Below, one piece after another: positions 29,977-49,920 of a DNA stretch of 64,000 bases. A program made the translations under genes and the position numbers. Positions within the stretch are counted from its first letter, which is position 1. Each line of letters opens with the position of its first letter. Under the pieces are notes generated by a model. It did not search any database. It was given only the letters and a program-made list of their open reading frames with translations, and was not told the DNA's origin. The DNA comes from a virus: positions 1 through 64,000 of IMG/VR virus record IMGVR_UViG_3300025099_003636; one strand, 5' to 3'.

Positions 29977-30678
29977 TTACTTACTTAGAAAATTGTTTAA
30001 TCGGTTCATTAGATTAACCGACTTATCTACATTTATGGATTTTGTTGATTTTTTTGTTTCTACTACCGGTAATTCTTCATCTACACTATCAGCGTTTTCA
30101 CCTTCTTTAAATAGGTATGACCCTGGTGTTGATGGTGATGAAACTAAGTCAAAACATACTAATTCGAAGTCTTCTTGGACTTCGTTGTATTCACCGTTTT
30201 TTGCTAGTGACCCAACACCTCTAGAAGAAATTCCTAATGTAACACCTTGTCTTAATAAATTTGCGGCCATATCACCAACACAAGAAATCACACCTTCTTT
30301 AAGATACCCAGGTGATGTTAGTAATTTTAACTTACCTATTAATCTATTACCGTCCCACCAAGTTTCTGTTATTATATGTGAAGCTCTATCTAAATCAATT
30401 AAAGAAGATTCTGGATGATTTAATTCTGAAATAGCACCCCCCTTTTTAATAACTTCTTGATATCTATCATTTTCTCTTTTAAGAATATTTTCTGGATATA
30501 CTCTTCCGTTTCTATTTGGTACACCATATTTTTGTAATATAGCGTTCATATATATTTCGCCATCAAAATTATCTTTTGTCATTTCTTTGATTATGTTTTT
30601 ATTATCTTTTGGTGAAATGTACCCGTCACTTTCGACTAATATACCGTGACCAACCTCTCTAGCTTCTAAAATTTTCAT
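29977..30678 (-). CDS. 21: Prohead core protease (gp21-like, family S77)
   Basis: 233 aa. Family blocks include GVPNRNGRVYPENILKRE, a candidate catalytic His in ISELNHPESS, DLDRASHIITETWWDG, LKEGVISCVGDMAANLL and the serine region VTLGISSRGVGSL. It digests the scaffold and trims head proteins after (L/I)xE. Its own N-terminus reads MKILE followed by A, a possible self-cleavage site. It lies between the gp68-position gene and scaffold, as in T4. A TATTTATA box precedes the start. Confidence 0.85.
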   Translation of the reverse strand: MKILEAREVGHGILVESDGYISPKDNKNIIKEMTKDNFDGEIYMNAILQKYGVPNRNGRVYPENILKRENDRYQEVIKKGGAISELNHPESSLIDLDRASHIITETWWDGNRLIGKLKLLTSPGYLKEGVISCVGDMAANLLRQGVTLGISSRGVGSLAKNGEYNEVQEDFELVCFDLVSSPSTPGSYLFKEGENADSVDEELPVVETKKSTKSINVDKSVNLMNRLNNFLSK

Positions 30679-41502: not shown

Positions 41503-43368
41503 TTACTTAACTTCTTCGAATTCAACGTCTGTGGCATCAGCTTTTGTTGTGTTATCAGTTTCTGGTACTTCAGTTTCTTGGTAAAGTTTAGTGCTTATCT
41601 CTTGCCAAGTACTATTAAGTTTTTCTGTTAAATCCTCAACTCCTTCCATATCTTCAGACTCAATAACTTCTTTAAGTTCTTTAATATTATTTTCTAGTCT
41701 AGATTTGTCCGTATCATCTAATTTATCTCCAAACTCTTCTATTTGTTTTTCTGTTTGGAATATTAGTGCGTCGGCTTCATTTAACTTATTAATTTTTTCT
41801 AACTTTTCGTTATCATCTTTGGCGTTAAGTTCAGCTTCTTTTTTCATTCTATCAATTTCATCTTCGGATAAACTACTTCCAGACTCAATTTTAATATTTT
41901 GTTGTTTACCAGTTCCTTTGTCCACAGCTTTAACATCGATTATACCATTAGCATCAATGTCAAATGTAACCTCAATTTGTGGTATACCTCTTTGAGCTGG
42001 TGGGATATCTGTTAGTTGAAATCTACCTAGTGTTCTATTGTCGTTGGACATAGGTCTTTCGCCTTGTAGTACATGTATGTCAACAGCTGGTTGATTATTT
42101 ACCGCGGTTGAGAATACTTGACTTTTTGATGTTGGGATTGTTGTGTTGGCGTCTATTAATTTTGTCATAACTTGGCCCATGGTTTCAATACCTAAAGAAA
42201 GTGGTGTTACATCTAACAATAAAACGTCATTTACATCACCAGCTAAAACACCACCTTGTATTGCTGCACCCATCGCTACAACTTCATCTGGATTCACCCC
42301 TTTAGATGGTTTTTTATTAAATAATTTTTCTACAGCCTCTTGTACCGCTGGGATTCTAGTAGAACCACCTACTAATAAAATTTCATCAATATCAGATGCT
42401 TTTAATTTTGCGTCTTTTAAAGCTTTTCTACATGGTGTTAAACTTTTTTTAACTAAATCACTAACCATAGATTCAAATTTTGCTCTAGATAAATTACGTA
42501 CTAGATGTTTTGGTCCTGTATTGTCTGCGGTAATATAAGGTAGATTAATTTCTGTTGTATTTGAGTTTGATAGTTCTACTTTTGCTTTTTCTGCGGCCTC
42601 TCTTAGTCTTTGTAATGCTGCAGCATCTTTAGATAAATCCATATTATTTTCAGTTTTAAATTCGTCTACCAACCAATCTATAATTTTTTCATCAAAATTG
42701 TCACCACCTAAATGTGTGTCACCATTCGTAGATTTTACTTCAAATACCCCGTCACCAAGTTCTAATATAGAAACATCAAATGTACCACCACCAAGGTCGT
42801 ATACCGCAACAGTCATATCCTTATTTTGTTTATCCATACCGTAAGCAAGTGCTGCAGCTGTAGGTTCATTAATAATCCTTAACACATTTAATCCAGATAT
42901 TTCTCCAGCTTCTTTTGTTGCATTTCTTTGTTCATCATTAAAATAAGCTGGTACAGTAATTACCGCATCTGTAACTTTTTCCCCAAGATAGTCTTCCGCT
43001 GTTTTTTTCAAATTCTGTAATACTACAGCTGAAATTTCTTGTGGTACATATTTTTTATCATTTACAGTTATGTTTACTGTGTCTTTTACACCTTTAACTA
43101 CTGAATAAGGCATCTTTTTTGCCTCTTTACTAATTTCACTAAACTTACTACCAATAAATCTTTTTACTGAATAGATAGTATTTTCAGGATTTGTAACTGC
43201 TTGTCTTTTTGCGGGGTCACCTACACTTCTGTCCCCCTCTTTAAACGATACAATAGAAGGTGTGGTTCTTTTTCCTTCTGCATTTACAATTATTTCTGGG
43301 TTTCCACCCTCAACCACGGAAACACACGAATTTGTTGTTCCTAAATCGATTCCAATTACTTTTGCCAT
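41503..43368 (-). CDS. dnaK: Full-length chaperone DnaK (Hsp70)
   Basis: 621 aa, close to full bacterial length. The nucleotide-binding domain shows [71 protein letters not shown] and [13 protein letters not shown]. The interdomain linker [18 protein letters not shown] and the substrate domain follow, then the helical lid and a C-terminal VEFEEVK like Bacteroidota DnaK. All visible catalytic motifs are intact, so it should be active. No DnaJ or GrpE is visible, so host co-chaperones would be needed. It was likely acquired from a Bacteroidota host. Confidence 0.95.
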
Positions 43369-43609: not shown

Positions 43610-45652
43610 ATGATAGAATTTAGAGATTCAGATGCAGTTGAAGATGATTTCGGTGGTCCTAACCAACCGAATAAAGATATTCCTAATAGTAGTACCCCTA
43701 TATTAGATAACTTTTCTAGAGATTTAACCACTTTAGCTTCTGAAGGGAAGTTGGACCCGGTTATCGGTAGAACAGATGAAGTAAAACGTTTAGTACAAAT
43801 ATTATCTAGGAGAAAGAAAAATAACCCCGTGCTTATTGGGGAACCTGGAGTAGGTAAAACTTCGGTAGTTGAGATGTTAGCTACCATGATTAATTCTGGT
43901 AATTGTCCCCGTACTTTGGTGGGTAAAAGAATTGTGTTACTAGAATTGTCGTCTTTGGTGGCTGGAACTAAGTATCGTGGTCAGTTTGAGGAAAGGATGA
44001 AAGCCATAATAGATGAATTACGAGAAAATAAAGATGTTATTATTTTTATAGATGAAATACATACTGTTATAGGTACTGGTAATTCTTCTGGTAATTTGGA
44101 CGCTGCGAACATTTTTAAACCACCATTGGCTAGAGGAGAAGTTCAGTGTATTGGTGCTACAACACTAGATGAGTATAGAGAAAAAATAGAAAAAGACGGT
44201 GCACTAGAAAGAAGATTCCAAAAAGTTATAATAGAACCACCATCTGTTGCTGATACTGTAGAAATTTTAAATAACATAAAACATGTCTATGAAAATCACC
44301 ACAATGTACTTTATGATGATGAAATTGTTGATTTATGTGTTAAGTTAGCTGACAGGTATATAAGTGATAGGGCATTTCCAGATAAAGCTATAGACATTAT
44401 GGATGAAGTGGGTGCTACTGTACAGATTGATGTTAAAACACCTAAGTCAATCACTAAACTTAAATTAGATATAGAAGAAGTTAAGTTGGAAAAGATTAAT
44501 GTGGTAAAATCTCAAATGTACGAAAAAGCTGCTGACCTTAGGGACGTGGAACGTAAATTAAAAACTAAATTAGATACGGTAACAAATAAGTGGGAAGAAA
44601 AACAATCTAGTAATAAAATAACTATAACTAGTTCTGATGTTATGTCGGTAGTTTCTAGAATAACCAGAATACCTTTAAGTAGGATGAATCAAAACCAAAA
44701 AAAGAATTTATTAAATCTAGATAAACAACTCAAAAAATATGTTATTGGTCAGGATAAAGCAATAGAAACAATAGTTAAATCTATTAGAAGAAATTCTGTT
44801 GGTATTAAGGAGTTGAATAAGCCTGTTGGTTCTTTTATTTGTTTAGGTCCTACTGGTGTTGGTAAAACTCATATAGCCAAAAAATTAGCTGAACTAATGT
44901 TTGGGTCTGAAGAATCTTTAATTCGTGTGGATATGTCTGAATTCCAAGAAAAACATTCTTTATCTAGACTGATAGGTTCTCCTCCAGGTTATGTGGGGTA
45001 CAATGAAGGTGGCCAATTTACAGAAAAAGTAAGACAGAAACCTTATTCTTTAATTCTATTTGATGAAATAGAAAAAGGTCATAAAGACATTTTCAATGTA
45101 TTATTGCAGATATTAGATGATGGTTACGTTACAGACGCTTCTGGTAGAAAGATTAATTTTAGAAATACTTTAATAATGATGACTTCCAATATTGGAGTTA
45201 AGCAATCTCAGGACTTTGGTGGTGGTTTAGGTTTTGTTACCAAAGCAACCCAACAAACTGATAAAGAACGAGTTAGGAGTATTATATCTAAAACATTAAA
45301 AGACACTTTTAATCCAGAATTTTTAAATAGATTAGATGATATTATATTTTTTGAGTCTTTAGAGGGTGAGAGCATTAAAAAGATTGTACGACTGGAGCTG
45401 GCTCTTTTATTAGAAAGATTAAAAGAAAAAAAATACTTAGTTAAGTTTGGTCGTAGTGTTGTAGAACATATTAGTGAAATTGGTTATGATAGTAAGTTTG
45501 GTGCTAGACCATTAAAAAGAGCTATACAATCAGAGGTGGAAGATTATATATCAGAAGAAATTCTAAAAGGTTCAATACTAGAAGATATACCATATAGTAT
45601 TGCTTATAATAAAGTTACTGAGAAGTTTAAATTAACAGAAAAAGATAAATAG
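43610..45652 (+). CDS. clpC: ClpC/ClpA-type AAA+ unfoldase lacking the N-domain
   Basis: 680 aa. Both ATPase modules are present: D1 with IGEPGVGKTSVVEM (Walker A near residue 77) and IIFIDEIHT; D2 with LGPTGVGKTHIAKK (near residue 413) and ILFDEIEKGH. A short UVR-like helical insert (MYEKAADLRDVERKLKTKL) places it with ClpC. GGGLGF near residue 538 gives an LGF tripeptide where ClpP-docking loops have [IL]GF, so it may bind host ClpP. The adaptor-binding N-domain of about 140 aa is missing. Transcribed away from dnaK. Confidence 0.88.
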   Translation: MIEFRDSDAVEDDFGGPNQPNKDIPNSSTPILDNFSRDLTTLASEGKLDPVIGRTDEVKRLVQILSRRKKNNPVLIGEPGVGKTSVVEMLATMINSGNCPRTLVGKRIVLLELSSLVAGTKYRGQFEERMKAIIDELRENKDVIIFIDEIHTVIGTGNSSGNLDAANIFKPPLARGEVQCIGATTLDEYREKIEKDGALERRFQKVIIEPPSVADTVEILNNIKHVYENHHNVLYDDEIVDLCVKLADRYISDRAFPDKAIDIMDEVGATVQIDVKTPKSITKLKLDIEEVKLEKINVVKSQMYEKAADLRDVERKLKTKLDTVTNKWEEKQSSNKITITSSDVMSVVSRITRIPLSRMNQNQKKNLLNLDKQLKKYVIGQDKAIETIVKSIRRNSVGIKELNKPVGSFICLGPTGVGKTHIAKKLAELMFGSEESLIRVDMSEFQEKHSLSRLIGSPPGYVGYNEGGQFTEKVRQKPYSLILFDEIEKGHKDIFNVLLQILDDGYVTDASGRKINFRNTLIMMTSNIGVKQSQDFGGGLGFVTKATQQTDKERVRSIISKTLKDTFNPEFLNRLDDIIFFESLEGESIKKIVRLELALLLERLKEKKYLVKFGRSVVEHISEIGYDSKFGARPLKRAIQSEVEDYISEEILKGSILEDIPYSIAYNKVTEKFKLTEKDK

Positions 45653-49229: not shown

Positions 49230-49260
49230 TTTGTTTTGTACAATAATTTACATATATTTG
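49230..49260 (+). promoter_or_regulatory. Bacteroidota-type promoter for the small basic gene and tmRNA
   Basis: -33 TTTG at 49230-49233, 19-base spacer, -7 TATATTTG at 49253-49260. The ATG at 49286 follows after a short leader; the tmRNA begins six bases after that gene's stop, so one transcript could carry both. Confidence 0.65.
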
Positions 49261-49285: not shown

Positions 49286-49474
49286 ATGCCAAAATCGAGA
49301 AATAGAAAAAACCACAGTAAGAAAGTTGCTGCTAGAAATCAAAGACTTAAACAAGAACAAAATGCTCTTAGTAAACAAATGGAATTAATGAAAGAAGAGT
49401 ATATCAAAAAAATGGCTGAAGAAGCTAAAGAAAAAGAAGTCGATGCGGGTGAAGTACCTTTAACATTGGGTTAA
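49286..49474 (+). CDS. Small basic/helical protein upstream of the tmRNA
   Basis: 62 aa. It starts MPKSRNRKNHSKKVAARNQR, strongly basic, then a Glu/Lys helix. I recall similar short proteins as recurring hypothetical proteins in marine phages; function unknown. The basic end could bind RNA or ribosomes, and the six-base distance to the tmRNA 5' end suggests co-transcription, but neither proves a shared role. Confidence 0.55.
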   Translation: MPKSRNRKNHSKKVAARNQRLKQEQNALSKQMELMKEEYIKKMAEEAKEKEVDAGEVPLTLG

Positions 49475-49479
49475 CATAT

Positions 49480-49890
49480 GGGGGTGACTGGAATTGATTG
49501 GCATCAGTCGATTAGTGTCAGCACGTCAAGCCTGAATTAAGCTTGTAAAACTGATTCATTTTTTTAACTGGCAAAACAATTGCTAAGTTGGTGACTTTAG
49601 GACTTGTCCGTGAGGAGTCAACAGTGGCTGTAGCGTAACTAAGTTACGACATAGCTCCATCTCTTCTAAAGAATTTAAGATTTGTGTCTTTAGTTTTTGG
49701 GGTGTCAAATAGACAAATCGAACCCGGTAACGTTTTCCACCGGTATGATGTATAGGGGGACTTGGGACTGATTTGAAGGTTGTTTATTCTATAGAATTAA
49801 GTCCGACAACAAAAGAATAAACTAAACGTGTAGGATAGACGTTAGTAGAAGATGAACAAGACGTGGGTTCGAAACCCACCACCTCCACCA
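49480..49890 (+). ncRNA. ssrA: tmRNA (transfer-messenger RNA)
   Basis: One-piece tmRNA of 411 nt with encoded CCA. The 5' GGGGGTG (49480-49486) pairs with CACCTCC before the discriminator A and CCA (ends 49890). The T-arm is GTGGG TTCGAAA CCCAC (49863-49879). The tag frame probably resumes at GGC 49570 (preceded by TTAACT) and runs 22 codons to TAA 49636-49638. It begins G-K-T-I-A-K and ends E-S-T-V-A-V-A. Bacteroidota tags also start with Gly, but are shorter and end ALAA. It rescues stalled ribosomes and tags nascent proteins. A terminator follows. Confidence 0.92.
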
Positions 49891-49895
49891 AAAAG

Positions 49896-49920
49896 AAAAG
49901 GACCATTAGGTCCTTTTTTT
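49896..49920 (+). terminator. Terminator after tmRNA
   Basis: Stem AAAAGGACC (49896-49904), loop ATTA, stem GGTCCTTTT, then a T-run to 49920. Classic Rho-independent form just after the tmRNA CCA; also lies at the end of the convergent gene that stops at 49919. Confidence 0.9.

Follow-up and report, generated by a model that had tools for sequence, protein, structure and literature searches.

Why a phage should carry a tmRNA gene is an open question, and the locus analyzed here poses it in a specific form, i.e. whether the products of rescued ribosomes are redirected to the phage's own protease. Such genes have reportedly been seen in the huge phages of Al-Shayeb et al. 2020, in the OM43 phage Melnitz, and in Wildcat-type mycobacteriophages. 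Our window is a stretch of 64,000 nt from a 99,619-base virus record, in which a sequence-only reading had proposed a complete phage tmRNA gene, describing such genes as known but rare. That they are known is borne out by published work, with tmRNA in 402 of 18,146 phage genomes (PMC9004378), in mycobacteriophages and phage G (PMC4131195), and in Cellulophaga phage Calle (PMC8776804); huge phages with tmRNA also carry SmpB (PMC7162821). A phage tmRNA as such is already known, and the unusual part is the tag.

The only RNA gene that ARAGORN called in the window is a one-piece tmRNA, and cmscan matched the same interval to the Rfam model RF00023 over its full length (positions 1-374 of 374) with 106.3 bits (E 1.5e-40), the curated cut-off being 47 bits. 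There is no second tmRNA in the whole record. Direct reading recovered the acceptor stem (GGGGGUG/CACCUCC with G3-U70), the T-arm (GUGGG-UUCGAAA-CCCAC), the encoded CCA (49888-49890, preceded by an A discriminator), and the terminator. The G-U pair at G3-U70 is found in all 14 rows of an alignment with 14 relatives, and in 39/43 rows of a second alignment of 43 more distant phage tmRNAs, in which the rest are apparently out of register. G3-U70, T-arm, and CCA together give the tRNA-like domain the features of alanine identity, from which alanylation is predicted. At another phage locus, L283 (G043:17336-17733), the acceptor stem is changed to GGGCCCG/CGGGUCC with G3-U70 retained. The coordinates of all features are listed below.

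Features of the tmRNA locus and its surroundings (positions in the window)
Feature	Position	Strand	Evidence
Head maturation protease	29977..30678	-	phrog_207, 158.7 bits
DnaK (Hsp70) chaperone adjoining ClpC	41503..43368	-	PF00012, 867.7 bits
ClpC-like AAA+ unfoldase without N-terminal domain	43610..45652	+	AAA, AAA_lid_9, AAA_2, ClpB_D2-small; LGF loop at ClpP-docking position
Bacteroidota-type promoter, TTTG-N19-TATATTTG	49230..49260	+	exact match to TTTGN{18,20}TANNTTTG; similar distance 5' of gene in close relatives
Basic ORF, 62 aa (MPKSRNRKNHSKK...)	49286..49474	+	translation; between promoter and tmRNA
tmRNA (ssrA), one-piece, encoded CCA	49480..49890	+	ARAGORN; RF00023; covariation on 14 and 43 relatives
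Acceptor stem, 5' strand	49480..49486	+	direct reading; G3 at 49482 pairs with U at 49884
PK1 (CAAGC/GCUUG and UGAAU/AUUCA)	49527..49558	+	14 relatives: zero unpaired cells, compensatory changes in both stems
Tag frame, resume codon GGC (probable), GKTIAKLVTLGLVREESTVAVA then UAA (49636-49638)	49570..49638	+	frame and length conserved in relatives; synonymous-change excess
Helix H5 around stop codon, CGUAAC/GUUACG	49634..49648	+	98.8% of cells paired; three pairs changed on both sides
PK2	49658..49719	+	stems 95-100% paired, with compensatory changes
PK3	49724..49761	+	perfect stems in window; 63-69% of cells paired across relatives
PK4	49765..49822	+	S2 GUUUAUUC/GAAUAAAC 100% paired; S1 78%
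T-arm	49863..49879	+	direct reading; five stem pairs intact in 14/14 relatives
Intrinsic terminator AGGACC-ATTA-GGTCCT (RNA: GGUCCU) and T-run	49899..49920	+	direct reading; similar hairpins 3' of gene in relatives

The whole fold (acceptor, T-arm, H2, PK1, H5, PK2, PK3, and PK4) could be drawn on the window RNA and is supported by covariation. In the 14-relative alignment, 93.1% of cells are paired and 35 pairs have changed at both positions; shuffles give 18.6 ± 2.5 such pairs (none of 500 reached the observed value), and slid structures or partners give 8-14. Support in this alignment is strongest for PK1, PK2, PK4-S2, and the tRNA-like domain; PK3 and PK4-S1, with 63-78% of cells paired, are weak in it and are drawn mainly from the window sequence. 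The tRNA-like domain and PK1 covary in the 43 more distant tmRNAs as well, and a permissive scan found PK1-like pairing in 65/65 phage tmRNAs. The sequence-only reading had staked the gene on a covariance match, pseudoknots, and a G3-U pair, all of which are there.

Upstream of the gene, the Bacteroidota-type promoter that had been proposed is in place. Its motif occurs eight times in the window, compared with 2.9 ± 1.5 in shuffles (0/100 reach eight), and recurs in a related lineage, named GNTFAK after its tag, where TTTG-N17-21-TAnnTTTG lies within 70 nt upstream of 29/44 tmRNA genes and 19-20 nt before the 5' end of the RNA in 27/44. Across all 65 phage tmRNA genes, 32 have an upstream motif, with 0.2 expected from mononucleotide shuffles. 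The 62-aa ORF that follows the promoter is probably co-transcribed with the tmRNA; homologous ORFs lie 3-15 nt 5' of the tmRNA at eight loci of close relatives (L089, L138, L088, L090, L112, L143, L150, and L190). The position of the motif in those 27 genes supports transcription in Bacteroidota. Judged by this motif and the resume region and its context, the host is probably a member of this phylum. The record itself is that of a T4-type tailed phage, with portal, major head protein, terminase, and head maturation protease, and the phage is large and probably Bacteroidota-infecting.

The tag reported by ARAGORN is AKLVTLGLVREESTVAVA, starting with GCT at 49582, four codons after a GGC. This start is probably wrong as the resume codon. 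Because the frames of relatives start at GGC, we place the probable resume codon at GGC 49570, which predicts the tag GKTIAKLVTLGLVREESTVAVA followed by the stop codon. The relatives were first reached through their Clp protein, and their tmRNAs were then read; from GGC, their frames follow the pattern G-N/K-T-F/I/L-A-K-M/L-x-x-L-G-L and run to V-x-A or V-A-V-A. We gathered 65 distinct phage tmRNAs, 63 of which have tags that could be read automatically, 48 of 21 and 15 of 22 residues. These comprise 45 distinct sequences, and Gly-Leu stands at residues 11-12 in all 63. Synonymous changes exceed position shuffles in both groups (0/500 reach the observed value). A DNA pattern that fixes certain tag bases, but never constrained the C-terminal residues, had retrieved part of these tmRNAs; among the 32 found without it, Gly-Leu is present in 32/32. 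The excess of synonymous changes persists on subsets free of pattern bias (0-6 of 1000 shuffles reach the observed value). Because it persists outside the pattern-fixed codons, this excess argues that the frame, with its resume and stop codons, is under coding selection and that the tag is kept as a peptide.

This selection bears on a rival proposal, in which the RNA competes with host tmRNA or is a relic of it and titrates SmpB without tagging. A TLD-only RNA of mycobacteriophage DS6A has been proposed to act in this way (PMC4131195), phages do carry tRNA-like-domain decoys, and the window's 99,619-base record, a fragment, has no SmpB gene. Since the mRNA-like domain, the pseudoknots, and the reading frame are all maintained by selection, we consider such a role very improbable. 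In the 32 records searched for it, SmpB was found once, in a 309-kb relative (L212; G027:23555-23968) that also has tmRNA, ClpC, and ClpP.

In most respects the RNA resembles the one-piece tmRNA of Bacteroidota, with which it shares the full-length RF00023 match, G3-U70, PK1-PK4, the H5 helix with the stop codon, a GGC resume codon in an AACUGGC context, and the promoter type. It differs in being phage-borne, in a record without SmpB, and in its tag. A tmRNA scored above the cut-off in 189/198 Bacteroidota genomes, and the 68 tags that we compared, from a sample weighted toward high scorers, end with LAA (49), MAA (18), or YAA (1); 67/68 are 8-10 residues long. Ten residues is also the commonest tag length in the current tmRNA database (PMC11915505). 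The predicted window tag, in contrast, has 22 residues and ends with VAVA and not with the LAA or MAA of a canonical short ssrA degron. Its relatives (about 65 tmRNAs) end with VVxA or VAVA, never LAA, and none of the 45 distinct tags ends with LAA or MAA. Some lineages have Lys or Glu as penultimate residue (VVKA and VVEA).

These C termini bear directly on which protease would read the tag. One alternative is that the tmRNA is functional and that its long tag is read by host ClpXP (or ClpAP/Lon), the phage boosting host rescue and the extra residues acting as a spacer. Like most ssrA tags, those of the phages usually have Ala as their last residue, and VAA ends occur among them; LVA and AAV variants of the E. 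coli tag are still degraded (PMC9382460); host ClpXP might accept tags ending with VAA or AVA; and no ClpP gene was found in the window's record (fragment). However, residue -3 is V, A, or T and never Leu or Met in the 45 distinct phage tags, compared with L or M in 67/68 Bacteroidota tags, and conservation of the inner motif (K-M/L, GL) throughout the group would be unnecessary in a mere spacer. We regard reading by host proteases as possible but doubtful.

The tag appears to be confined to phages. Its DNA pattern was found in 83 stretches of viral contigs, and those that were read are tmRNA tags. Among bacteria and archaea (84,980 species) there were five matches, none in a tmRNA; the pattern is exact and moderately different bacterial tags would escape it, and none of the 68 Bacteroidota tags resembles it. 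Among 50,697 phage records, blastn with the window tmRNA returned just T-arm matches of about 30 nt and with a second member of the tag family zero matches; tblastn with the consensus tag, a weak query of 21 residues, gave no match. Judged by these comparisons, the 22-residue tag is conserved, phage-specific, common to dozens of related giant phages, and unlike the short bacterial tags. In the openly accessible journal papers searched, we found no description of the long-tag group or of a link between phage tmRNA and ClpC.

Known phage tmRNAs (phage G, mycobacteriophages, Melnitz, Calle, and huge phages) are likewise phage-borne, but none of those checked has the window tag; the tags described here form one conserved family, common to a large group of uncultivated phages with an adjoining ClpC gene. 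Long or non-LAA tags occur in other phages, such as AKLNITNNELQVA in phage G and AVDTDVDFAMWEAELASDLVAA in EniyanLRS. A huge phage of 484 kb (L302:1501-1944; LR756508.1) encodes homologues of DnaK and ClpC, and its tmRNA frame, read by eye from GGC, gives a 36-codon tag unrelated to the window's family, GVNNADYESAGFTAEDFAQMDGESLYHGSERKPAAV. The tmRNA of Prevotella phage Lak-A1 (L304; MK250015.1) appears to end with ...DDEIDFRMAA, a host-like tag; private tags are therefore not universal among the tmRNAs of Bacteroidota phages. Two further observations concern the RNA genes themselves. A group I intron of ∼197 nt (RF00028, 72.5 bits) interrupts the T-loop of a long-tag tmRNA at L023:12508-13099, the exons of which, if joined, would give a perfect T-arm; the same is seen at L026, and also at L123 and L154. 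T-loop introns are known in bacterial tmRNAs, some of class Bacteroidia (PMC11915505), and the L023 case is phage-borne. In addition, related phages have GOLLD RNA (RF02032) close to the tmRNA, at a distance of a few hundred bases or less, at L105:941-1348 (319 bits) and L104:2044-2296 (198 bits).

Upstream of the tmRNA, the window encodes DnaK, a ClpC-like unfoldase, a SprT-like protein, and a putative peptidase. The unfoldase shares with bacterial ClpC two AAA+ modules, a short middle domain, and a ClpP-docking loop. Both ATPase sites are present, with LGF where ClpC contacts ClpP, and both sites and an [LVI]GF loop are kept in 32/32 homologues (those of 80 loci that were parsed by motif search). 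Its best PDB match is Staphylococcus aureus ClpC (713.6 bits). Since this alignment starts at ClpC residue 142, the N-terminal domain of bacterial ClpC is missing, and there is no Clp_N match in the protein. The ClpC gene lies about 4 kb from the tmRNA in the window and usually about 3 kb in related records, and the protein was found in 41 of 42 records, most of which had been chosen through the tag pattern and not through Clp; the exception is a 48-kb fragment.

A peptidase partner is also common in the group. ClpP (PF00574) was found in 30/49 records, including 9/10 of those of at least 200 kb, with scores of 172-203 bits, strong matches to bacterial ClpP structures, and the motifs of the catalytic site (GMAASMG and MLHQ or MIHQ). 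That these proteins are head maturation proteases was ruled out, as the window has a separate phrog_207 gene and they match bacterial ClpP. The tmRNA, the unfoldase, and the peptidase occur together in one genome in some relatives, G048 and G059 among them; the available part of the window's genome has the tmRNA and ClpC only. G059, which shares the 22-residue tag type of the window, encodes ClpP, and none was found in G055 (210 kb), which is closer to the window. A gene at 95505-96824 of the window's record, ∼3 kb from the record end, has an orthologue in G059, and the ClpP gene of G059 lies ∼8 kb from that orthologue. ClpP of the window lineage may lie just beyond that end, gene order being too poorly conserved to say.

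The presence of a tmRNA beside an unfoldase gene suggests a tag-and-destroy system operated by the phages themselves. Two points temper this suggestion. The two genes share their descent within a single phage group, so that finding them linked adds no independent support for their acting together. ClpC and ClpP are also present in phages without detected tmRNA (G024 and the huge phages LR756502 and LR745206), and thus serve roles other than tagging. The linkage nevertheless bears on the idea that the tag is no degron, so that ribosomes are recycled, the products remain stable or are otherwise routed, and host proteases are spared. The VVKA and VVEA ends, which depart from the usual LAA, would fit, but a strongly conserved peptide of 21-22 residues and the association with a Clp unfoldase would be left unexplained, which makes this idea improbable.

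The explanation that we favor, with about even confidence, is a functional tmRNA adding a phage-specific degron that is probably handed to a Clp machine, for which phage ClpC with ClpP is the best candidate. The tmRNA made by the phage would be charged with alanine through its G3-U70 acceptor stem, would bind SmpB (presumably the host's), and would enter and then release ribosomes that have stalled at broken mRNAs in the infected cell. The unfinished protein would gain Ala and then GKTIAKLVTLGLVREESTVAVA. Lacking the LAA/MAA end of the probable hosts, the product would probably pass to a Clp machine, and the phage unfoldase encoded nearby, working with ClpP (encoded by the phage in relatives and otherwise by the host), could recognize it. 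Of the two roles first suggested for the RNA, i.e. replacement of host tmRNA after RNA decay or retagging of nascent proteins, both are plausible; retagging is the more interesting because the tag is conserved, phage-specific, of double length, and linked to a Clp unfoldase gene. A broader reading, which we put forward tentatively and at somewhat less than even confidence, is that a widespread group of giant Bacteroidota phages has its own trans-translation and proteolysis, with a private degron of 21-22 residues, a phage ClpC without N-terminal domain, and a phage ClpP (in one case also SmpB), apart from the LAA/ClpXP route of the host.

A phage-only tag and a linked Clp gene make the purpose of a phage tmRNA testable. 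There is a precedent in the Mollicutes, where a longer ssrA tag is tied to a different protease, Lon (PMC9382460). The tag of Mesoplasma florum is likewise longer with a changed C terminus, but its gene is chromosomal, its protease is Lon rather than ClpC, and it ends with YAFA (PMC9382460). If the proposed pathway is true, these phages would encode a viral equivalent of the switch of tag and protease seen in Mollicutes, and the tag and its protease would form a pair separate from that of the host, usable as a laboratory degron.
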